Positions 468-10,226 of a DNA stretch of 64,000 nt are shown in pieces. Position numbers and translations under genes: made by a program. The notes under the pieces are model-generated. The model was given only the letters and a program-made list of their open reading frames with translations. It was not told the origin of the DNA and searched no databases. Within the stretch, counting starts at the first letter, position 1. Every line of letters begins with the position of its first letter. The stretch is from Hyphomicrobiales bacterium (lineage in GTDB: Bacteria > Pseudomonadota > Alphaproteobacteria > Rhizobiales > Rhizobiaceae), in contig UCOA01000086.1 in the NCBI GenBank assembly GCA_900474095.1, positions 1-64,000 of the forward strand, given 5' to 3'.

Positions 468-1346
468 ATGATCGCATATCTCCTTCTCGTCCACCGTTAC
501 CCCGAGCAATTCAAGCGCCTGTTCAAAGCCATCTATGACCCGCGAAACCATTACGTCGTGCACGTCGACAAAAATTCCGGCCCTGAACTCGCATCCGAAA
601 TCCGCGCCTTCCTGCTGCCCTATGGCAATGCCGATATGCTCGACGGCAAGAAGGCGCTTTGGGGCGGTTATAGTCTTGTGGAGGCTGAGCTTCGCGGTAT
701 GGAGCGTCTTTTGCAGATGGGGGAATGGAGCCATTTCATCAATCTCAGCGGCCAGGATTTTCCGCTGAAAAGCCAAAAGCAGATCATCGCGTATCTTGTC
801 GCCAATAAGAATCGCGAATTCATCAAGGTCCTGGACCAAGCGCGGGACCGCCCCGACACCATGCTCCGCGTCAGCGAGTTCGTGGTTGAGTCGGACAATC
901 GCATTGAACAAACGGCGGTTTCCAGACCGTTCCTATCCGGCGCAGCGCCGTATATCGGCAATCAATGGATGATCGTCAGCCGGGCATTCTGCGACTTCGT
1001 CTGTCACGATCAGCGTGCCGACCGTTACAAGACATTCTACCAGAACACGTTTATCCCCGACGAGGGTTTTTTCCAGACGGTTATGATGAACACTTCTGTC
1101 CACAACGATATCGTTAGCGACGACCTGCGGATGATCGACTGGGTGCCGGATGGCGATATCAAGTTGCGCCCAAGAACCTATGTCAGCGATGATGCCGATG
1201 CGCTGAAGGCGAGCCCCGCCCTGTTTGCCCGCAAGTTCGATCAGACCGTTGACGGGGATATTATCGCGACGCTGGAACGGCATCTCGCCGCTCGCGATGT
1301 GGCGAATATCGACACGCCTGCCGTGTTGCCGGCAAACGCAGCGTGA
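468..1346 (+). CDS. GT14-type (core-2/I-branching) glycosyltransferase
   Basis: The protein of about 292 residues matches the core-2/I-branching beta-1,6-N-acetylglucosaminyltransferase family (GT14) as found in bacteria: an MIAYLLLVHRYPEQF start, a HVDKNSGPE segment, then LWGGYSLVEAEL and the NLSGQDFPLKS core. Such enzymes add a sugar to surface glycans, exopolysaccharide or LPS; the acceptor here is unknown. I chose ATG 468 because the family normally begins with the IAYLLLVH strand. ATG 441 and TTG 396 are in-frame alternatives, and none has a strong ribosome-binding site. It stands alone, not in a polysaccharide cluster. Confidence 0.8.
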   Translation: MIAYLLLVHRYPEQFKRLFKAIYDPRNHYVVHVDKNSGPELASEIRAFLLPYGNADMLDGKKALWGGYSLVEAELRGMERLLQMGEWSHFINLSGQDFPLKSQKQIIAYLVANKNREFIKVLDQARDRPDTMLRVSEFVVESDNRIEQTAVSRPFLSGAAPYIGNQWMIVSRAFCDFVCHDQRADRYKTFYQNTFIPDEGFFQTVMMNTSVHNDIVSDDLRMIDWVPDGDIKLRPRTYVSDDADALKASPALFARKFDQTVDGDIIATLERHLAARDVANIDTPAVLPANAA

Positions 1347-1647
1347 GGGCTTTCCTCAGCACTGTAGACTTATCGGCGTCGGGTCAAGGTGGGACGTCGG
1401 TCTATGATCAGGCGACCTGAAGATGAGCGATTTTACTCCACATCTGCATCGCGACCCCTCAGTTTGCCAGCGCCGCCTACATCCTGCTGACATAGCCGAA
1501 TCCGGAGTCATGATCGGGGTCTTGACCCCCCGCCAAAGCCGCCTTCGGCAAGCCAGACCAACAGTCGCGACTACGCGTCCGATGACGAGCGGCGCGGACA
1601 GCGCGCTTCGATCCCTTTGCCGGAATGCCCATGAAAGCATCAACTCA
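1347..1647. other. Intergenic stretch between convergent genes
   Basis: About 300 bases between the ends of two convergent genes. Open frames on both strands have no family features, and I see no stem-loop with a T-run. Confidence 0.4.
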
Positions 1648-2586
1648 TCAATTTTGGTCATGCAGCTTGAGGAAGTCCGAGACAGTCGCAAGGCAAAGGG
1701 CTTTTTCCTCGACATGTGGCATATGGCTGGAGTCTTCGAACAACACCCAGCGGCAATCGGGAACATTTTCCACGTAAGGGCGAACGACCTCCGGGGTTGC
1801 CTCGTCATGACGCCCGGAGATCAACAGGGTCGGAGTGGAGATTTGTGATAGGCGGTCCTCGATGGTCCAGTCCTTCATCGTACCGATGACGTGGAATTCG
1901 GTCGGGCCGTTCATGTTGCGGTAGACGGTGTTGTCGACATCCATTATCGCAAAGGTGCGGGCCACTTCGGGCGGCCAGGGGACGACACGGCAGACATGGC
2001 GGTCGTAGAACACACGCGAGGCGACGATATAGTCCGGGTCTGTCAGGGTACCCGCTGCCTCGTGCTTCAGCAGCGTATCCTGCACCGCCTGCGGCAGGTT
2101 GCGGCGCAGGCGGTTGGCCTCTGCCACCCAGGTGTGCATATTGGCCGGCGAATTAGCGATCACCAGTGCCTTCAGTCCTTCCGGCTGGCGCACCGCATGT
2201 TCAGCGCCGAGCATGCCGCCCCAGGATTGGCCGAGGAAGGCATGGCGGCGGGTAATGCCGAGGTGGCTTAGTAGCGTGTCGAGTTCCTCCAGAAACAGCG
2301 GCACCGTCCAGAAGTCCGGGCCTTCCTCCGGAAGGCGCGTGGACTTGCCATTGCCGAGCTGGTCGTAATGGATGACGGCGCGGCCATCGAAGGCTGCGAT
2401 ATCCTTAAAGGAATCGACGTAGTCGTGTGTGCAGCCGGGGCCACCATGGGCGACCACCAGCGGCAACAGGGGAGAATCGAGCGATCCGCTGACGCGATAC
2501 CATGTCCGGAATTCGTGAAACGGCATGAAACCTTCCTCAACAGCCACCGTCACGTTCTTCTCCACCCGTTCGCTCAAGATGGGCAA
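1648..2586 (-). CDS. Proline iminopeptidase-family alpha/beta hydrolase (first copy)
   Basis: Alpha/beta hydrolase of the proline iminopeptidase family (peptidase S33), which removes N-terminal proline from small peptides or hydrolyses related amides. The HGGPG oxyanion motif is at residues 47-51, the nucleophile elbow GQSWGG has Ser121, and Asp261 (GRHDEATP) and His288 (SSHMPHVE) complete the triad. The 312-residue call uses a TTG start. A GTG a few codons in (before TVAVEEGF), preceded by GGTGGAGAAG, or the ATG of [10 protein letters not shown] are alternatives. It lies 33 bases downstream of the luxR gene on the same strand and is probably cotranscribed with it, the arrangement known for plant-responsive LuxR solos. 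Confidence 0.88.
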
Positions 2587-2619
2587 ACCATAATGCGGGG
2601 GCGCCGGGACCGGCAGCTA

Positions 2620-3420
2620 TCATAAGTAATAGGGTGTGTCGTCAAGCAGGCGATAGTGCGTGGCGCGCACCACGGCCTGTGTCCGGTTCTTGGCGCCGAG
2701 TTTCTTCGCCGCCCCATTGAGGTGCATGACGACGGTCGGTACCGAACGATCGATGATCCGAGAAATCTCTTTGGCGGAGAGGCCTTCGGCCGAGTAGCGC
2801 AGGCATTCCCGCTCGCGTTTGGTCAGTCGCGTCTTCGTCGATGCGCGCGCATCCCGGTCAAAAACCGGATAGGCGGTTTCATGGAAAACATGGGCGAGCA
2901 GGCCAAAATCGGCAAGCGCATGGCCGGCATCCCGTTCGAAATCGCGCTTGTCGCCGACGCGCAGGCCCGTCACGGTTGCGTAGTCGCCGCGCGGCATGTG
3001 CACTGGTACCGTCACGCCGCAGGACATGTCGCGCTCGCGCAGATAATGCGCCACCGGCGCCGTCTCCTCGGTCATGAAACGATTGATCAGAGTGCCGGCG
3101 TTCCTGTCATAGTTCCAGAAGAAGGGTGTCGTCGTGCGCAACGCAAGTTGCTGTACGGGATCGATACGAAAATAGCCGCGTTCGCACCAGTATTCGTGCA
3201 TGTCGTTGGAAATGTTGCGAAGCTTCAACAGCGACGGGATCATCAGGTCACCGGCCAGATCATAAGGTACCGGCGTATAGTCGTAGATCAGCGCATCGAA
3301 ACCCAGCCGCTTCATCGCTTCAAAGACCTGATCGATGCGGCCTTCAAGCGTCGCCACTGCCGAGAAACGCTGTCTGATCTCACCGATATCGTCAAACATA
3401 GCCGAACTCCAGTCATACAT
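2620..3420 (-). CDS. LuxR-family solo regulator of the plant-responsive (PipR/OryR/NesR) type
   Basis: A 266-residue transcription factor with an autoinducer-binding domain (about residues 25-180) and a C-terminal LuxR helix-turn-helix (LTKRERECLRYSAEG onward, about 203-260). Aligned to TraR from the invariant Asp-Pro (87-88) and Trp102, the ligand-pocket Trp57 is replaced by Met74 and Tyr61 by Trp78. That pair of changes is the known mark of LuxR solos in plant-associated bacteria (OryR, XccR, PsoR, NesR, PipR), which sense plant compounds rather than acyl-homoserine lactones. No luxI-type synthase is in the window. Proline iminopeptidase genes flank it on both sides and a peptide-type ABC transporter follows, as in the PipR locus. 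ATG 3399 is an alternative start. Confidence 0.93.
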   Translation of the reverse strand: MYDWSSAMFDDIGEIRQRFSAVATLEGRIDQVFEAMKRLGFDALIYDYTPVPYDLAGDLMIPSLLKLRNISNDMHEYWCERGYFRIDPVQQLALRTTTPFFWNYDRNAGTLINRFMTEETAPVAHYLRERDMSCGVTVPVHMPRGDYATVTGLRVGDKRDFERDAGHALADFGLLAHVFHETAYPVFDRDARASTKTRLTKRERECLRYSAEGLSAKEISRIIDRSVPTVVMHLNGAAKKLGAKNRTQAVVRATHYRLLDDTPYYL

Positions 3421-3535
3421 GCGATTGAACCTGCCGGGAGCGATCCTATCACTTCTTATAGCTGGCGCAGAACCGATATTCCGCTAAAAATTAGCCATGC
3501 TCAAAAGATGGGCAAGCGGTTTGTCGGAGATAGGG
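3421..3535. promoter_or_regulatory. Divergent control region between luxR and second iminopeptidase
   Basis: The luxR-pip unit and the pip-transporter unit diverge from this roughly 115-base gap, so both promoters and any LuxR operator should be here. I looked for a 20-base lux-box-like palindrome and saw only an unpaired ACCTGCC half-site at 3429-3435, so the operator is not proven from sequence. Confidence 0.45.
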
Positions 3536-4426
3536 ATGTGGCGGGAGGTCGAGCCTGACGAGCGCTATGAGGTCGAGGTTGATGGCTTCAAGGTCGTCGC
3601 ATATTGCTTCGGAATCGGCGATGAGGTGGTGTTTTGCCTTAACGGCGGACCGGGGCTGCCATGCGATTACCTGCGCGAGGCGCATTCCTGCCTAATCGAC
3701 GAGGGATACCGCATCGTCGCCTTCGATCAACTCGGCACCGGCGCGTCGGACCGTCCGGCGGATTCTGGCCTTTGGACGATCGGCCGTTATGTCGAGGAGA
3801 CCGAGACGGTGCGCAAGGCACTGAACCTCGGCAAGGTGCATATGCTCGGCCATTCCTGGGGTGGCTGGCTTGCCATCGACTATGCGCTGACCTATCCCGA
3901 AAACCTGAAGACGCTGATCCTCGAGGATACGGTTGCCGACATGCCGCATCTGGTCCAGGAACTCGAACGACTGCGTGCGGCCCTGGGGTCCGAAACCGTG
4001 GCGATGATGCAAAAGCACGAGGCGCAGGGAACCATCGATCACCCGGAATACCTGGCGGCGATCACCATCCTCAACTACCGGCACGTCTGCCGCCTTTCCG
4101 ACTGGCCGGCCCCGGTCAAGCGGTCACTGGATGACTGGAACATGGGTCCCTATGGCACCATGCAGGGGCCGAACGAGTTTCTCTATATCGGTAATCTGAA
4201 GGACTGGAACCGCGTTCCGGATCTGCCGAAGATTACCGTTCCGGTTTTGATCACCTGCGGCGAACACGACGAACTGACGCCCGCCTGCGCGCTTCGTATG
4301 AAGCTCGGCCTGCCGGACGCGGAGTTGAAGGTGATTGCCAATGCAAGCCATATGCCTTTCTATGAGAATCCGCAGGCTTACTATCCGGCCCTGCTCGATT
4401 TCCTTTCACGGCGCGGGTCGACGTGA
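3536..4426 (+). CDS. Proline iminopeptidase-family alpha/beta hydrolase (second copy)
   Basis: Second S33-family hydrolase, about 296 residues, clearly diverged from the copy at 1648-2586. Counting from ATG 3536, NGGPG is at 36-40 (Asn for the usual His), the nucleophile elbow GHSWGG has Ser107, with Asp245 (CGEHDELTP) and His272 (ASHMPFYE). I prefer ATG 3536, preceded by GGAGATAGGG, over the in-frame ATG 3497. It is the first gene of a rightward unit that continues 57 bases later into the ABC transporter genes, so it probably trims or hydrolyses the imported peptide or plant signal. Confidence 0.9.
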   Translation: MWREVEPDERYEVEVDGFKVVAYCFGIGDEVVFCLNGGPGLPCDYLREAHSCLIDEGYRIVAFDQLGTGASDRPADSGLWTIGRYVEETETVRKALNLGKVHMLGHSWGGWLAIDYALTYPENLKTLILEDTVADMPHLVQELERLRAALGSETVAMMQKHEAQGTIDHPEYLAAITILNYRHVCRLSDWPAPVKRSLDDWNMGPYGTMQGPNEFLYIGNLKDWNRVPDLPKITVPVLITCGEHDELTPACALRMKLGLPDAELKVIANASHMPFYENPQAYYPALLDFLSRRGST

Positions 4427-4483
4427 TGACAACAGCAAGGCCCATGGCAGCTGAGCTCCGGTGGCTGAAAGGGGCGCGCGCCC

Positions 4484-5422
4484 ATGCACCGCTATAGGTT
4501 CGTTCTGTTTCGGCCATTGCAGTTGCTGCCGGTTCTCTTCGGCATCAGCATCATCATCTTCATCCTGGTGCGGCTCATTCCGGGCGATCCGGCCCGCGTG
4601 CTGCTCGGCACCCGCTCGACACCGACGGCAATTGCCCGCATCCGGGCGCAGTATGGGCTCGATGAGCCGCTATGGCTGCAATATTTTTATTTTCTTGAAA
4701 ATCTCGGCCAGGGCGAAATGGGCAAGTCGATCCTCTACAAGATCGACGTGTTGAAGCTGATCGCCACCCGCATCGAGCCGACCCTGACCCTGGTCCTGGC
4801 AAGCGTTCTCCTGTCCATTCTCATCGCGGTTCCGATGTCGGCGATCGCCGCGCGCAACAACGGGCGCCTTGCGGACCATGCCGTGCGGATCGTCTCGACG
4901 CTTGGCATCGGTCTTCCCCCCTTCTGGCTTGCGCTGATGCTGATCATCCTGTTTTCCGTCCGGCTCGGCGTCTTACCGGTCTCCGGCTATGGCGAAACGA
5001 TTGGCGACAAACTGGCACATCTGGTCCTGCCGAGCCTGACGATTGCGCTGTCTCTCTCGGCGGTGCTGACGCGAAGTCTGAGGGCGGCGATGATCGTTGC
5101 CTTGAAATCGGACCTAGCGACAGCTGCACGAGCGCGCGGCATGCCGGAAAACGTCGTCTTCTGGCGGCATGTCTTGCCAAATTCGCTGGTGCCGACACTC
5201 AATCTGCTCGCCGTCAATATCGGCTGGCTGATCGGCGGCACCGTCGTCGTCGAAACGGTCTTTGCCATTCCGGGCATGGGGCAACTGCTGGTGCGGGCAA
5301 TTTTCTCGCGCGACTACATGGTGGTGCAGGGCGTCGCCATGGTCTTTGCCTGCGCCACAGTGCTGGTCAATTTCCTCGCCGACATCGTCACGGTCAGCCT
5401 CGATCCGAGGATCCGGCTATGA
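4484..5422 (+). CDS. Peptide-type ABC transporter permease (DppB-like)
   Basis: A 312-residue inner-membrane permease of the dipeptide/oligopeptide/nickel family. The N-terminal membrane segment is followed by IPGDPARVLLGTRST, about six membrane spans are visible, and the coupling loop (EAA-type) is readable near DLATAARARGMPENVVFWRH. It forms a heterodimer with the next gene product. Its stop overlaps the following ATG by four bases (ATGA at 5419), indicating coupled translation. Confidence 0.95.
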   Translation: MHRYRFVLFRPLQLLPVLFGISIIIFILVRLIPGDPARVLLGTRSTPTAIARIRAQYGLDEPLWLQYFYFLENLGQGEMGKSILYKIDVLKLIATRIEPTLTLVLASVLLSILIAVPMSAIAARNNGRLADHAVRIVSTLGIGLPPFWLALMLIILFSVRLGVLPVSGYGETIGDKLAHLVLPSLTIALSLSAVLTRSLRAAMIVALKSDLATAARARGMPENVVFWRHVLPNSLVPTLNLLAVNIGWLIGGTVVVETVFAIPGMGQLLVRAIFSRDYMVVQGVAMVFACATVLVNFLADIVTVSLDPRIRL

Positions 5423-6273
5423 CTTCTGGCGCGACGGCCACCCGCATGAACGTGCCCTGGAGCCGTTTTCTCGGCCGGCATATGACGTGGACGATTGGTG
5501 CTGGAATTCTCGGACTATTCCTGGCTGTCGCTCTCGCCGCGCCGTTGGTCGCACCTTATGACCCGATCTATCAGGATGCCACCGTCCGTCTCGCCATGCC
5601 GTCGTTTGCCCATCCCTTTGGCACGGACAATTTTGGCCGGGATATCCTCTCGCGCGTCATCTGGGGCACCCGCATCGACCTGCAGATCGCCGTCATCGGC
5701 GTCGTCTTTCCGTTTCTCATCGGTACCTTCATCGGCACGGTCGCGGGCTTCTTCGGCGGCATCGTCGATACTGTCTTCATGCGGCTGGTCGATATAATCC
5801 TCGCCTTTCCCTTTCTCGTGCTGATGCTCTCGATCATCGCCATCCTCGGCCCGGGACTGTCGAGTTTCTATATTGCCATGGCCCTGGTCGGCTGGGTCTC
5901 CTATGCGCGGTTGATACGAGCGCAGATGCTGGTGTTGAAGAGCAGCGATTATGCCGTGGCTGCCGTCAGCCTTGGTTTCAGCCGCGCTCGCATCATGTTC
6001 CGCCACCTTCTGCCGAATGCGGTTGCCGGCTCCATTGTCTTTTCCATGTCGGATGCAGTGCTGGTGCTGCTCAATGGCGCAGCGATCAGCTATCTCGGCC
6101 TCGGCGTTCAGCCGCCGGTCGCCGAATGGGGTGTCATGGTTGCCGAGGGCCAGAGCTTCATCACCTCTGCCTGGTGGATCACGCTGTTTCCCGGCCTGTC
6201 CATCATCGTCCTGGCCTTCGGCTTTAGCCTGCTGGGCGATGGCCTCGGCGAATGGCTGGGCGTGAACGAATGA
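5419..6273 (+). CDS. Peptide-type ABC transporter permease (DppC-like)
   Basis: A 284-residue permease partner. It has the N-terminal DppC/OppC-type segment, then AVALAAPLVAPYDP, HPFGTDNFGRDILSRVIWGTR and the EAA-loop region SDYAVAAVSLGFSRARI. Both ends overlap their neighbours: the start with the DppB-like gene, and the stop with the ATG of the ATPase gene at 6270. Together the two permeases form the channel for substrate delivered by the binding protein at 8015. Confidence 0.95.
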   Translation: MTSGATATRMNVPWSRFLGRHMTWTIGAGILGLFLAVALAAPLVAPYDPIYQDATVRLAMPSFAHPFGTDNFGRDILSRVIWGTRIDLQIAVIGVVFPFLIGTFIGTVAGFFGGIVDTVFMRLVDIILAFPFLVLMLSIIAILGPGLSSFYIAMALVGWVSYARLIRAQMLVLKSSDYAVAAVSLGFSRARIMFRHLLPNAVAGSIVFSMSDAVLVLLNGAAISYLGLGVQPPVAEWGVMVAEGQSFITSAWWITLFPGLSIIVLAFGFSLLGDGLGEWLGVNE

Positions 6274-8018
6274 GCGGCCCGGTGCTTTCCATCCGCAACC
6301 TGACGGTAAAGGTTCCGATCGACGGCGAAACCCGCACGCTTATTGATGCCGTCTCCTTGGACCTCGCCAGGGGCGAAATCCTCGGATTGGTCGGCGAAAG
6401 CGGCTCCGGCAAGAGCATGATTTGCCGCGCGCTTGTCAAGCTTCTGCCGTCCCCCGCGATCGCGATAACCGGCGGCTCCATTCTGCTCGAGGGCAGAGAA
6501 CTGACGGCGTTCGATGAAGATGCAATGCGGGCAGTGCGCGGGGTGGAGATCGGCATGATTTTCCAGAACCCGACCAGCCATCTCGATCCTGTCATGCGTA
6601 TTGGCGACCAGATCGCCGAAGGTATCCGCTATCATCAGGGCCTTGGCCGCGACCAGGCACGGCTTGCCGCTGTCGATATCCTCGGCCAGGTGGGATTTCC
6701 TCATCCCGAGAGGCAATACGACAGTTATCCGCACGAGTTCTCCGGCGGTATGCGCCAGCGTGCCATGATCGCGGTGGCTCTGTCCTGCAATCCGAAGATC
6801 CTGATCGCCGACGAGCCGACCACTGCGCTCGACGTTACCATCCAGGCGCAGATCTTGCGTCTTCTGATGGACCTGCGCGACAAACGCGGCCTGTCGATCA
6901 TCCTGATCACCCATGATCTCGGGATCGTCGCCCAGACCTGCGACAGCATCGCGGTGCTGCGCAACGGTCAGCTTCTAGAGCACGGTCCCAAGCGCCGCGT
7001 TCTTGCCGATCCACAGCATGCCTATACGGTCAGCCTGTTGGAAAGCCATCCGTCCACTCCGCAGGAGGGGGGCTCAAGGGCAATCGCTAAGGTTGCGCCG
7101 CAATCGCTGGCGCGGCCGCTGCTGGAAGTCGACGATCTGGTGGTGCGCTTTCCGACGCCGGGCCTTGGGTTGTTCTCCGGCAAGAAAAAACCCGTCGCCG
7201 CCGTCAATGGTGTCAGTTTGCGGATCATGCCGGGCGAGACCGTTGGCATCGTGGGGGAGAGCGGGTCCGGCAAGAGCACGCTTGCCCGCGCCATTCTCGG
7301 TCTCACGCCGCTGACGTCCGGCCATGTCAGCTTTGAAGGATCCGAACTTGCCCAAAACCGTCGCCATACGCTGGCCAAGCTGAGGACCGAGGCGGCCATG
7401 GTGTTTCAGGATCCCTACAACGCACTCAACCCGCGCCTCACCATCGGCGCCATGCTCGCCGAAGTCCTTACCGTGCAGGGCAACACACCGTTGGCGCGCA
7501 TTCCGGCAAGGATCGGCGAATTGCTCGATCTGGTCGAACTGGACCACGCATTCTTGAATCGTCGCCCCCGCAGCATGAGCGGCGGGCAGTGCCAGCGCGC
7601 CGGCATTGCCCGAGCGCTCGCAGTCAATCCAAAGCTGATCATCGCCGATGAATGCGTGGCGGCTCTCGATGTCACCATCCAGGCGCAGATCATCGACCTC
7701 TTTCGCGATCTGAAAACACGGATGAACCTGACGCTGCTGTTCATCTCCCATGATCTCGCCATCGTGCGCAATCTCTGTGACCGCGTCGTCGTCATGTATC
7801 GCGGCGAGATCGTCGAGGAAGGCCGCTGCGGCGCGGTGTTCGACAGTCCGAGCCACGCCTATACAGCAGCGCTAATCAGCGCCATTCCCGATATCGACCC
7901 GGACAAGCCGTTGCCTAAAGGGGATTTGCCGCCGCTGAGCGAGCCGAAGGCGGTGCCGGATCTTCGAGGCCAACCACTGATCAGCATGCACTATCAACAA
8001 AGGGAACAGCGATCATGA
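6270..8018 (+). CDS. Fused two-domain peptide ABC transporter ATPase (DppD-DppF)
   Basis: A 582-residue protein holding both ATPases of a peptide transporter in one chain. Domain 1 has Walker [10 protein letters not shown] near residue 45, the signature [11 protein letters not shown] and Walker [13 protein letters not shown]. Domain 2 has GESGSGKST near 330, [14 protein letters not shown] and [13 protein letters not shown] linker of about 50 residues between them carries the oligopeptide-transporter C-terminal region. ATG 6270 overlaps the previous stop (ATGA) and is preferred over ATG 6252. The second Walker B has Cys-Val where DEPTSALD-type proteins have Pro-Thr. Coupled by ATGA to the next gene. 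Confidence 0.95.
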
Positions 8019-9535
8019 AAAGCAAATGGAAGACTCTAAGCATAGCCACGGTGCTTGCCGTGGTGGTCACATTCGGGGCCAGCATCGCCGAAGCCGCGGG
8101 GGTGCTTACCATCGGACGCCGAGAGGACTCGACCACGTTCGATCCGATCAAGTCGGCGCAGAATGTCGACAACTGGGTTTTCTCAAACGTCTTCGATGTG
8201 TTGATCCGTGTCGACAAAACCGGTACCAAGCTGGAGCCCGGCCTGGCGGAAAGCTGGACAGTGTCCGATGACGGCCTGACCTACACATTCAAGATCCGCG
8301 ATGCAAAATTCTCCGACGGTTCGCCAATCACGGCCGGAGACGCGGTCTTCAGCCTGCTGCGCATCCGCGACAACGAAGGCTCGCTGTGGAGCGACAGCTA
8401 CAAGATCGTCGATACGGCCGAAGCCGCCGACAACCGGACGCTGGTCGTTAAGCTGAAAACGCCGTCCGCCCCGTTCCTGTCGACACTGGCGCTGCCGAAT
8501 GTTTCGGTGCTATCGAAGAAGGGCTTGGAAGAAGCGGGCGAGGAAGCCTTCGCCGAAAAGCCGATTGCCTCATCCGGCGCCTTCACCGTCAAGGAATGGC
8601 GCCGAGGTGACCGCGTCATCCTCGAAAAGAACCCGAATTTCTGGCAGGCGGACCGCGTTAAGCTCGATGGTGTCGAGTGGATCTCGGTGCCCGACGACAA
8701 CACCCGCATGCTGAATGTTGAGGCCGGTGAACTGGACACGGCGATCTTCGTGCCGTTCTCGCGGGTGGAAGAGTTGAAAAAGAATCCGAACCTTGAGGTT
8801 CACATCGATACATCGACCCGCGAAGATCACCTTCTGATCAACCACGAGCACGGTGCGCTCGCCAAAAAGGAAGTCCGCCAGGCGCTCGACATGGCGATCG
8901 ACAAGAAGGCTATCGTCGATACCGTTACCTTCGGGCTTGGCGAAGTCGCCAATTCCTATATCCCGAAGGGCTCGCTCTATCACTACGATGCCAACCATCA
9001 GTACCCGTATGACCCGGAAAAGGCCAAAGCGATGCTGGCGGACGCCGGAGCGTCGGATTTGTCGCTGAACTACATCGTCAATACCGGCAACGAGGTCGAC
9101 GAGCAGATCGCCGTTCTCCTGCAGCAGCAGCTTCAAAAGGCTGGCGTCACCGTCAACCTGCAGAAGGTCGATCCGAGCCAGAGCTGGGACATGCTGGTGG
9201 CTGGCGATTACGATATCTCAGTGATGTATTGGACCAACGACATTCTCGACGCGGACCAGAAGACGACCTTCGTACTCGGTCACGACACCAACTTGAACTA
9301 CATGACGCGGTACAAGAACGACAAGGTCAAGGATCAGGTGGCCGAAGCCCGACTCGAACTCGATCCCGTCAAGCGCGAGGCCATGTATGTGGATATTCAG
9401 AAGATGGCCAAGGACGACGTCCACTGGATCGATCTCTATTACAGCCCCTACATCAACGTTTCGCGCAAGAACATCGAGAACTTCGATCAGAATCCGCTCG
9501 GCCGGTTTTTCCTCGAAAACACCGTCAAGAACTGA
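8015..9535 (+). CDS. Periplasmic substrate-binding protein of peptide ABC transporter
   Basis: A 506-residue solute-binding protein of family SBP_bac_5 (DppA/OppA type). Residues 1-28 form a Sec signal peptide ([16 protein letters not shown], cleavage near SIAEA-AG). The mature part opens with LTIGRREDSTTFDPIKSAQ and contains AESWTVSDDGLTYTFKIRD, the family signature region. It begins inside the ATPase gene stop (ATGA) and is the last gene of the unit. In the known PipR locus a transporter of this kind imports the plant-derived ligand; whether the ligand here is a peptide or an ethanolamide-like compound is not visible. Confidence 0.95.
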   Translation: MKSKWKTLSIATVLAVVVTFGASIAEAAGVLTIGRREDSTTFDPIKSAQNVDNWVFSNVFDVLIRVDKTGTKLEPGLAESWTVSDDGLTYTFKIRDAKFSDGSPITAGDAVFSLLRIRDNEGSLWSDSYKIVDTAEAADNRTLVVKLKTPSAPFLSTLALPNVSVLSKKGLEEAGEEAFAEKPIASSGAFTVKEWRRGDRVILEKNPNFWQADRVKLDGVEWISVPDDNTRMLNVEAGELDTAIFVPFSRVEELKKNPNLEVHIDTSTREDHLLINHEHGALAKKEVRQALDMAIDKKAIVDTVTFGLGEVANSYIPKGSLYHYDANHQYPYDPEKAKAMLADAGASDLSLNYIVNTGNEVDEQIAVLLQQQLQKAGVTVNLQKVDPSQSWDMLVAGDYDISVMYWTNDILDADQKTTFVLGHDTNLNYMTRYKNDKVKDQVAEARLELDPVKREAMYVDIQKMAKDDVHWIDLYYSPYINVSRKNIENFDQNPLGRFFLENTVKN

Positions 9536-9851
9536 GTTGCACGGCCTTCTTCGGAACAAGCTGTCCGCTGCGTTTGGTGGATGGCTTGTGTATGAACTGC
9601 GATGCACCTCTGCTTGTTGGGTGAATTGGTCAGCGGGTGCTATCGGAACGCGCAGAGTGCCTCCATTCACAGCGGACTCCGTCCATCAAAATCTGTGAGA
9701 CTATGGGCGATTACCGAGACGTCCTCCCACCCCTAACCGCTGCATTTGACCGAGCAATTAGGTTGAAAGCAGTTGAGTCGACGTTTGACATGAGGGACGG
9801 TCGCGTCGCGGTGGGCGAAGCCCGCTTGTGGACGTTCGCCCGATGAAAGGG
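9536..9851. other. Intergenic stretch, nothing recognised
   Basis: A gap of about 316 bases between the transporter binding protein and a convergent VOC gene. I see no reliable coding potential, RNA gene or terminator with a T-run. Confidence 0.4.
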
Positions 9852-10226
9852 TTAGGCCTCGGGTTCGTGACAAACCACTTCAAGGTTGTGCCCGTCCGGA
9901 CCAATGACAAAAGCTGCATAGTAGTTCGCGTGGTAGTGCGGGCGTAGCCCGGGCGCACCATTGTCTTTGCCACCCGCCTCCAGAGCCGCGTGATAGAAAG
10001 CTTCGACTTGCTGGCGATTCTCGGCCGTGAACGCCAAGTGGAGATGCGCCGGCTTCTCCTCGGTTTGGTACAGGCACAACGAAGCCTTGCCCTTTGGGCT
10101 AAGCTCGACACCGTACGTCGGCGATCCCTCCGAGACAACAGCTACGCCGAGCGGTTCGAGTGATTTGAGGAAGAACGCTTTGCTCGCTGAATAGTCGCTA
10201 ACTCCGAATTTGACGTGGTCAAACAT
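9852..10226 (-). CDS. VOC-family (glyoxalase/bleomycin-resistance fold) protein
   Basis: A small vicinal-oxygen-chelate protein of 124 residues with two beta-alpha-beta-beta-beta units. It begins MFDHVKFGVSDYSASKAFF, carries a HLHLAFTAENRQQVEAFY second module, and ends with YYAAFVIGPDGHNLEVVCH. Candidate metal ligands are the first-module His, HLHLAF and the Glu of NLEVV. Start ATG 10226 is favoured by the AGGGGAACTC ribosome site; the frame stays open for 19 more codons upstream. Substrate unknown: the family includes glyoxalases, dioxygenases and resistance proteins. Confidence 0.85.
   Translation of the reverse strand: MFDHVKFGVSDYSASKAFFLKSLEPLGVAVVSEGSPTYGVELSPKGKASLCLYQTEEKPAHLHLAFTAENRQQVEAFYHAALEAGGKDNGAPGLRPHYHANYYAAFVIGPDGHNLEVVCHEPEA

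Follow-up and report, generated by a model that had tools for sequence, protein, structure and literature searches.

The window analysed here, a stretch of 64,000 nt that begins contig UCOA01000086.1 of a Hyphomicrobiales bacterium (assembly GCA_900474095.1), contains a seven-gene locus at positions 1648–9535 built around a luxR gene of the NesR type, that is, a LuxR solo of the plant-associated bacteria (PAB) group. On the minus strand, luxR (2620–3420) is followed by pip2 (1648–2586), which encodes a pipA-like hydrolase of the proline iminopeptidase family. On the plus strand, pip1 (3497–4426), which encodes an aapA-like hydrolase of the same family, opens a divergent row that continues with genes for an AapB-like ATP-binding cassette (ABC) permease (4484–5422), an AapC-like ABC permease (5419–6273), a fused double ATPase corresponding to AapD and AapE in one 588-residue chain (6252–8018), and a periplasmic binding protein (8015–9535). 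In a profile search, LuxR matched PF03472 (101.5 bits) and GerE (52.6 bits), and both peptidases exceeded the TIGR01250 cut-off of 167.65 bits (261.9 for pip2 and 265.4 for pip1); the two peptidases share 36% identity over 261 aligned columns. The permeases and the ATPase were recognised by family matches, and both permeases also by comparison with related loci. The importer is complete, with a binding protein, two permeases and two ATP-binding domains in one chain, and the closest solved relative of the binding protein is AapF of the PipR system (PDB 7kz8), with 353 of 480 aligned residues identical (73%). The starts of the second permease, ATPase and binding protein genes precede the stops of the genes before them (5419/5422, 6252/6273 and 8015/8018), an arrangement as in one operon. 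An earlier reading of the same DNA (the original prediction) had named a LuxR protein, two unlike iminopeptidases and a complete peptide-type ABC importer, and its inventory and coordinates proved correct.

The LuxR protein has the residues of a PAB LuxR solo. Numbered from the longest open reading frame (ORF), it has Met74, Trp78, Asp87, Pro88 and Trp102 at TraR positions 57, 61, 70, 71 and 85; alignment to TraR thus confirms the residues claimed for it, in the numbering of that claim (TraR numbering is used below). M57, W61, D70, P71, V72, Q73 and W85 are invariant in all 59 sequences of the rhizobial set, the window protein included. W61 and Q73 are given as PAB marks in PMC3821632, and W57M with Y61W is tabulated for XccR, OryR, PsoR and NesR, in the same gene context and with Rhizobium among others, in PMC4338825. 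We built a tree from 42 of the 87 LuxR sequences, in which the named known members were nesR of Ensifer aridi LMR001 and the Sinorhizobium meliloti copy; OryR, XccR and the PipR of Pseudomonas GM79 were not among its named sequences. The window protein and 32 other W61 LuxRs, most of them pip-linked, separated from nine others with support of 100/98, which bears out its predicted place among the plant-associated LuxR solos. The nine outside rows are seven LuxRs of the window's own genome, including both that lie beside luxI, and two distant sequences; the tree program warned of long branches, mostly among these nine. The locus combines autoinducer-binding and GerE domains, M57/W61 with D70, P71 and W85, adjoining pip genes (two of them), no adjoining luxI, a place in the tree with known members, and the motif CT(N12)AG in a pip promoter. 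It lacks the W57 and W61 pair that marks the PipR subgroup, having M57, and it lacks the retained W57 and Y61 and the cognate luxI of a receptor for acyl-homoserine lactones (AHLs). An AlphaFold model of the protein, computed from a 22-row alignment, had a mean predicted local distance difference test score of 88.9 and a predicted template modelling (TM) score of 0.83. Its best PDB matches were the full-length receptors QscR, SdiA and RhlR, with TM-scores of about 0.5–0.6 over the whole chain, and its TM-score against the LasR ligand domain reached about 0.85.

The true starts of three genes probably lie downstream of those of the longest ORFs, at ATG 3399 for luxR (259 aa), ATG 3536 for pip1 and GTG 2553 for pip2. 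Alignments begin at residue 7 or later of LuxR in 35 of 58 homologues and at residue 6 or later of pip1 in 54 of 58; the S. meliloti Ak57 annotation places the luxR and pip1 starts at the equivalents of 3399 and 3536; and GGAG precedes all three codons. For these reasons we consider them the likelier starts. The Ak57 annotation begins pip2 five codons before the GTG at 2553. Counted from ATG 3399, these residues are Met67, Trp71, Asp80, Pro81 and Trp95, and the tryptophan is numbered Trp71 in OryR and PsrR as well (PMC7301841).

Given the published PAB, NesR and PipR accounts, the locus is a PAB (OryR/NesR/PipR) LuxR-solo cassette, of a kind already described. The closest characterised protein found for its LuxR is NesR of Ensifer/Sinorhizobium, at 75–76% identity, and the NesR locus of E. 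aridi and S. meliloti also shares the gene order, the fused ATPase, M57/W61 and the operators described below; among the features compared, only sequence divergence and genomic neighbourhood differ. The gene set is also, as the original prediction held, that of Pseudomonas PipR: according to PMC4981722, GM79 has pipR followed by pipA on one strand and, divergent from them, aapA with the importer genes aapBCDEF as a likely operon, and the PipR site proposed there overlaps pipR at its 5′ end. The GM79 system resembles the window in its W61 and in the 73% identity of the two binding proteins; it differs in having W57 (as PMC4981722 and PMC7301841 report for PipR), in its separate ATPases and, judging by Pseudomonas-like copies, in its operator. 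Thus 'PipR-type' does not apply in the strict sense, since PipR keeps Trp57 and the window protein has Met57 like NesR and OryR. Nor do two features that had been singled out as peculiar to this locus set it apart. Divergent iminopeptidase genes are the layout of GM79 as described in the text of PMC4981722. Fused ATPases, for their part, are the usual state among the Hyphomicrobiales copies that were examined: in 63 of 78 sources (the window, 56 of 58 related loci and six others), all of them Hyphomicrobiales as far as placed, the gene forms a single open frame of 560 codons or more. In the two remaining loci (L026 and L034) the match falls into two pieces, reflecting a frame break or a sequencing fault. 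Two ATPase genes occur in seven copies found outside the class (L089–L093, Klebsiella variicola L101 and Rahnella victoriana L102), and six of the 78 sources gave no match close enough for fusion to be judged. The OryR/XccR loci of Xanthomonas likewise have an M57/W61 LuxR solo adjoining pip, but an APC-type transporter gene in place of a linked ABC importer (PMC4981722). PsrR of Kosakonia also has M57/W61 and an adjoining pip gene; it differs in its other neighbours and in the lack of induction in the tests reported (PMC7301841). The subgroup as listed in PMC10134790 includes Rhizobium, Agrobacterium and Shinella.

The cassette is conserved as a unit. A scan of genome contigs, limited in reach to close relatives, gave matches in 80 stretches, and 58 loci were confirmed. 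Gene order is the same in all 58: luxR and pip2 share one strand, and pip1, the two permeases, the ATPase and the binding protein share the opposite one (in L024, pip2 is cut by a contig end); this retention of order and strand for seven genes shows an association beyond chance. The confirmed loci include those of S. meliloti 4H41 and E. aridi LMR001. The luxR gene of the latter is nesR, since it comes from the same strain, is 783 bp long and matches at both ends pieces of two nesR deletion primers given in PMC8877191.

Comparison of the luxR/pip1 intergenic regions revealed a near-invariant block, CCTATCACTTCTTATAGCTG (candidate operator 1; 3445–3464, plus strand), which recurs at the 3′ end of luxR as CCTATTACTTATGATAGCTG (candidate operator 2; 2614–2633, minus strand), upstream of pip2. 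The 20-bp lux-box-like element CCTATNACTTNTNATAGCTG thus occurs twice in the locus, one copy lying between luxR and pip1 and the other spanning the luxR stop codon. Both sites include CT(N12)AG, a motif that PMC4471428 gives for las and pip boxes and that forms the lux-box core of site 1 at 3446–3461. The pip1-side site matched CCTATNACTTNTNATAGCTG exactly in 64 of 65 rows and with one mismatch in the other; the pip2-side site matched exactly in 59 of 66, with one mismatch in six and two in one. (One locus, in genome G091, was counted twice per side, as L074 and L096; of the more distant copies, L089–L092 and L101 were excluded beforehand on both sides, and L093, L095, L102 and L105 on the pip2 side as well.) The luxR stop codon falls within site 2 in 61 of 75 loci and upstream of it in five; in nine, site 2 is absent at two mismatches. 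The spacing to a downstream element is also conserved. Counted from the start of site 1, AAA(A/T)T is 42 nt away in 53 of 65 rows and 41 or 43 nt away in 10 (not found in two); counted from that of site 2, (T/C)TAT(G/C) is 40 nt away in 59 of 66 and 69 nt away in one (not found in six). With a lux box centred at −42.5, both elements would fall at about the −10 position, with transcription starting near 3496 and 2581. On the pip1 side, conserved TAAAAA (3485–3490, plus strand), 40 nt from the operator start, is a candidate −10 element. In the four Pseudomonas-like copies (L089–L092), CT(N12)AG sites were seen by eye, with a sequence different from that of the window.

These sites track the luxR gene. 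The window holds exactly two at up to two mismatches, compared with 0.00 in shuffled sequence, and the whole genome holds exactly two at up to one mismatch, both beside luxR; this and the following searches were run at up to one mismatch, so that weaker sites elsewhere are possible. The site was present in 12 of 61 relatives. For 41 of these LuxR was also searched for, and the 11 with the gene were the 11 with the site, leaving 30 of 30 with neither. Among 199 genomes of the family, 23 had the LuxR (E 1e-60 or better) and 16 had the site, all 16 among those 23; none of the 176 genomes without the LuxR had it (Fisher test, 1.6e-18, which is too generous because related genomes are not independent). 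All 26 sites in the family genomes lie 0–83 bp from the LuxR match. A reversed control pattern matched four of the 199 genomes, so a few stray matches were to be expected, and none was seen away from this luxR. We infer that the conserved elements are operators of this LuxR. The operator strings occurred in no relevant paper of the open literature searched, which gave only two unrelated matches, and no NesR binding site was met in the passages searched; neither search covered the original NesR paper. The locus itself is one more rhizobium in a described group; what is new is the operator pair, found in this genome, at up to one mismatch, only beside luxR.

The cassette has sharp boundaries. 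DNA similarity to the window begins at 1648–1706 in 57 of the 58 loci (the other, L024, is the one cut by a contig end) and ends at 9535–9588 in all 58, so that homology stops at the boundaries of the cassette genes; in Pararhizobium sp. A13 it spans 1633–9664. When six close copies were compared with one another, flanks were common only to L012 and L013 and to L014 and L015, apart from short pieces. The LuxR is patchily distributed: besides the window's own genome, it was found in 10 of 24 genomes of the same genus, where identity to the window protein is 92–97% in five and 65–75% in five (the latter no higher than in S. meliloti), in 23 of 199 of the family and, at E 1e-20, in 14 of 398 of the phylum, two of the 14 not being of the PAB-cassette kind. 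It also matched 153 plasmid records, 123 of them from Rhizobium, including a 1.5-Mb replicon of Pararhizobium sp. A13 (97% identity). This fits a cassette that moved as a unit, with repeated loss as the alternative. Ends of a mobile element were sought and the idea rejected: between 1347–1680 and 9500–9960 there was no direct repeat of nine or more bases and only two 9-base inverted matches. The window contains no tRNA gene. Searches of 26 genomes with each flank, with left and right pairs judged by eye, showed no empty site: left-flank matches outside the own genome were fragments of up to about 120 bases, right-flank matches were spread across numerous contigs, and no left match listed lay within 5 kb of a listed right one.

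We propose, with a probability of about 0.8, that the locus is a NesR-type PAB LuxR-solo cassette running a circuit of import, sensing, activation and degradation. The AapF-like protein would capture a small peptide-like or amide-like compound, probably derived from plants, and the ABC transporter would bring it into the cytoplasm. There it would bind LuxR in a pocket changed by Met57, Trp61 and Gln73, and the loaded LuxR dimer would bind the two lux-box-like operators, each in a class II-like position before a conserved −10-like element, and so activate pip2 as well as pip1 and the transporter genes. Both aminopeptidases would then destroy the ligand, and the circuit would shut itself off. 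Between them the two candidate operators would cover only these two transcription units, and the regulon is most likely a local one. The ligand class, its plant origin, activation, degradation and feedback are proposed by analogy with PipR of Pseudomonas GM79, where reporter activity is described as requiring pipR and aapB and as rising in peptidase mutants (PMC4981722). A response to plant compounds is likewise inferred only; for NesR it was a question unaddressed at the time of PMC3821632, and a paper on Rhizobium quorum sensing defers LuxR solos to later work (PMC13133039).

Several observations weigh against this proposal. A consensus scan placed no sigma-70 promoter at either operator, finding one in 1300–10000 compared with 3.0 in shuffled sequences. 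Seven of the 23 LuxR-positive family genomes, whose LuxRs are more divergent (43–51% identity), have no site at one mismatch, and six of the 16 site-bearing family genomes show only one. The reports that bear on related regulators include negative ones: pip was not induced by N-(2-hydroxyethyl)-2-(2-hydroxyethylamino)acetamide (HEHEAA), ethanolamine or rice root macerate in the Kosakonia PsrR tests (PMC7301841), PsaR2 was unresponsive to the kiwifruit leaf macerate tried (PMC3909224), and the E. aridi nesR promoter was near background in the assays of PMC8877191. Moreover, since PipR keeps W57, its ligand need not be shared, and the genome carries three luxI-family genes.

Those luxI genes raise the question of whether the protein is instead an AHL receptor answering the product of one of the three enzymes. 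PF03472 gave nine matches in the genome (6.40 Mb in 279 contigs) at E 0.001; eight of these, the window luxR among them, were over the cut-off. The luxI-family genes lie on contigs C243, C49 and C157, the latter two adjoining a luxR, and none is on the window contig. The term 'LuxR solo' in the original prediction is thus right for the absence of luxI beside the gene, which is locally unpaired, but not for the genome as a whole, and the cell is equipped for AHL production. In S. meliloti, moreover, the nesR promoter is reported to bind ExpR/AHL (PMC5977203), so that AHLs may act on nesR expression. Against AHL reception, W57 and Y61 are both replaced, the tree separates the window LuxR from the own-genome LuxRs beside luxI, and PipR and OryR were unresponsive to the AHLs tested (PMC4981722, PMC4471428). 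We rejected an AHL receptor with a cognate synthase on the residues and the tree, and consider AHL reception in general very improbable. A second explanation is nutrient scavenging, in which a peptide-use operon is induced by the compounds it serves to use, peptides or hydroxylated amides of whatever origin, and no dedicated plant signal exists. It overlaps the proposed circuit and differs from it in the source of the ligand. The transporter and peptidases are of catabolic-type families, PipR is reported to answer also to peptone and the tripeptide Ser-His-Ser (PMC4981722), and the only sites at up to one mismatch adjoin luxR, all as scavenging would have it; the effects of E. aridi nesR deletions on symbiosis and salt tolerance (PMC8877191) and the poorer root colonisation by a Kosakonia psrR mutant, which was not complemented (PMC7301841), speak for more than that. 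We hold scavenging to be a serious contender, somewhat short of an even chance.

A third explanation, which is compatible with the proposed import-and-degradation circuit, keeps the circuit and changes the ligand: in rhizobia, Met57 and a diverged LuxR would select a different ligand from HEHEAA. Given Met57, HEHEAA should not be taken for granted: W57 occurs with W61 in the four copies that come from outside the class and fit Pseudomonas, and M57 in 59 of 59 sequences of the rhizobial set. In genome G415 of the same genus (locus L099), LuxR is 74% identical to the window protein and the permeases and binding protein are 91–94% identical, which suggests that the regulator diverges fastest or was exchanged, and a close homologue of the binding protein is reported not to bind HEHEAA (PMC10134790). 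Against such a change of ligand, the window binding protein and AapF still share 73% identity, and we regard a different ligand as almost an even bet. Going further, the cassette might be a self-contained, horizontally moving module, whose two operators, the only ones genome-wide, lie within it, in which case nesR effects would be indirect and the ligand, in view of Met57, would not be HEHEAA. We put this forward tentatively and lean against it. If true, the reported effects of nesR mutation on the methionine cycle, stress and nodulation would stem from the import and destruction of one compound. The value of the locus lies in the operator and in the prediction of a local regulon: the operator is a precise conserved target, predicts a locally acting NesR and makes the question of the rhizobial PAB ligand testable.

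To the left of the cassette, at 396–1346, lies a gene for a glycosyltransferase of the Core-2/I-branching type, for which none of the 58 related loci gave a match at E 1e-10. In the locus of the congener G411 (L098) and in two Rahnella-type copies (L093 and L102), pip1/aapA is absent and the importer is kept. Record CP090106 (3.72 Mb; L103), titled pSymB, has gltB near the locus and a chromosome-like size, so its label may be wrong; this doubt rests on a chromosomal place for gltB, which we assume. Three LuxR-like proteins of the window's own genome (C84:6963–8271 and C142:5703–6125) have D70S and L, A or Y in place of W85, and belong to other LuxR types. To our knowledge, pip adjoins all PAB LuxR solos in the literature. 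At L094:8973–9740, a LuxR with M57/W61/Q73 has neither pip gene matched within its 19-kb stretch; its neighbours are a divergent amino-acid permease gene and a downstream DUF1348 gene. In Roseicitreum antarcticum, from intertidal sediment, a LuxR with L57/W61/Q73 (L105:6001–6690) lies near a pip gene, a nitrilase gene and genes for an iron-type ABC transporter.

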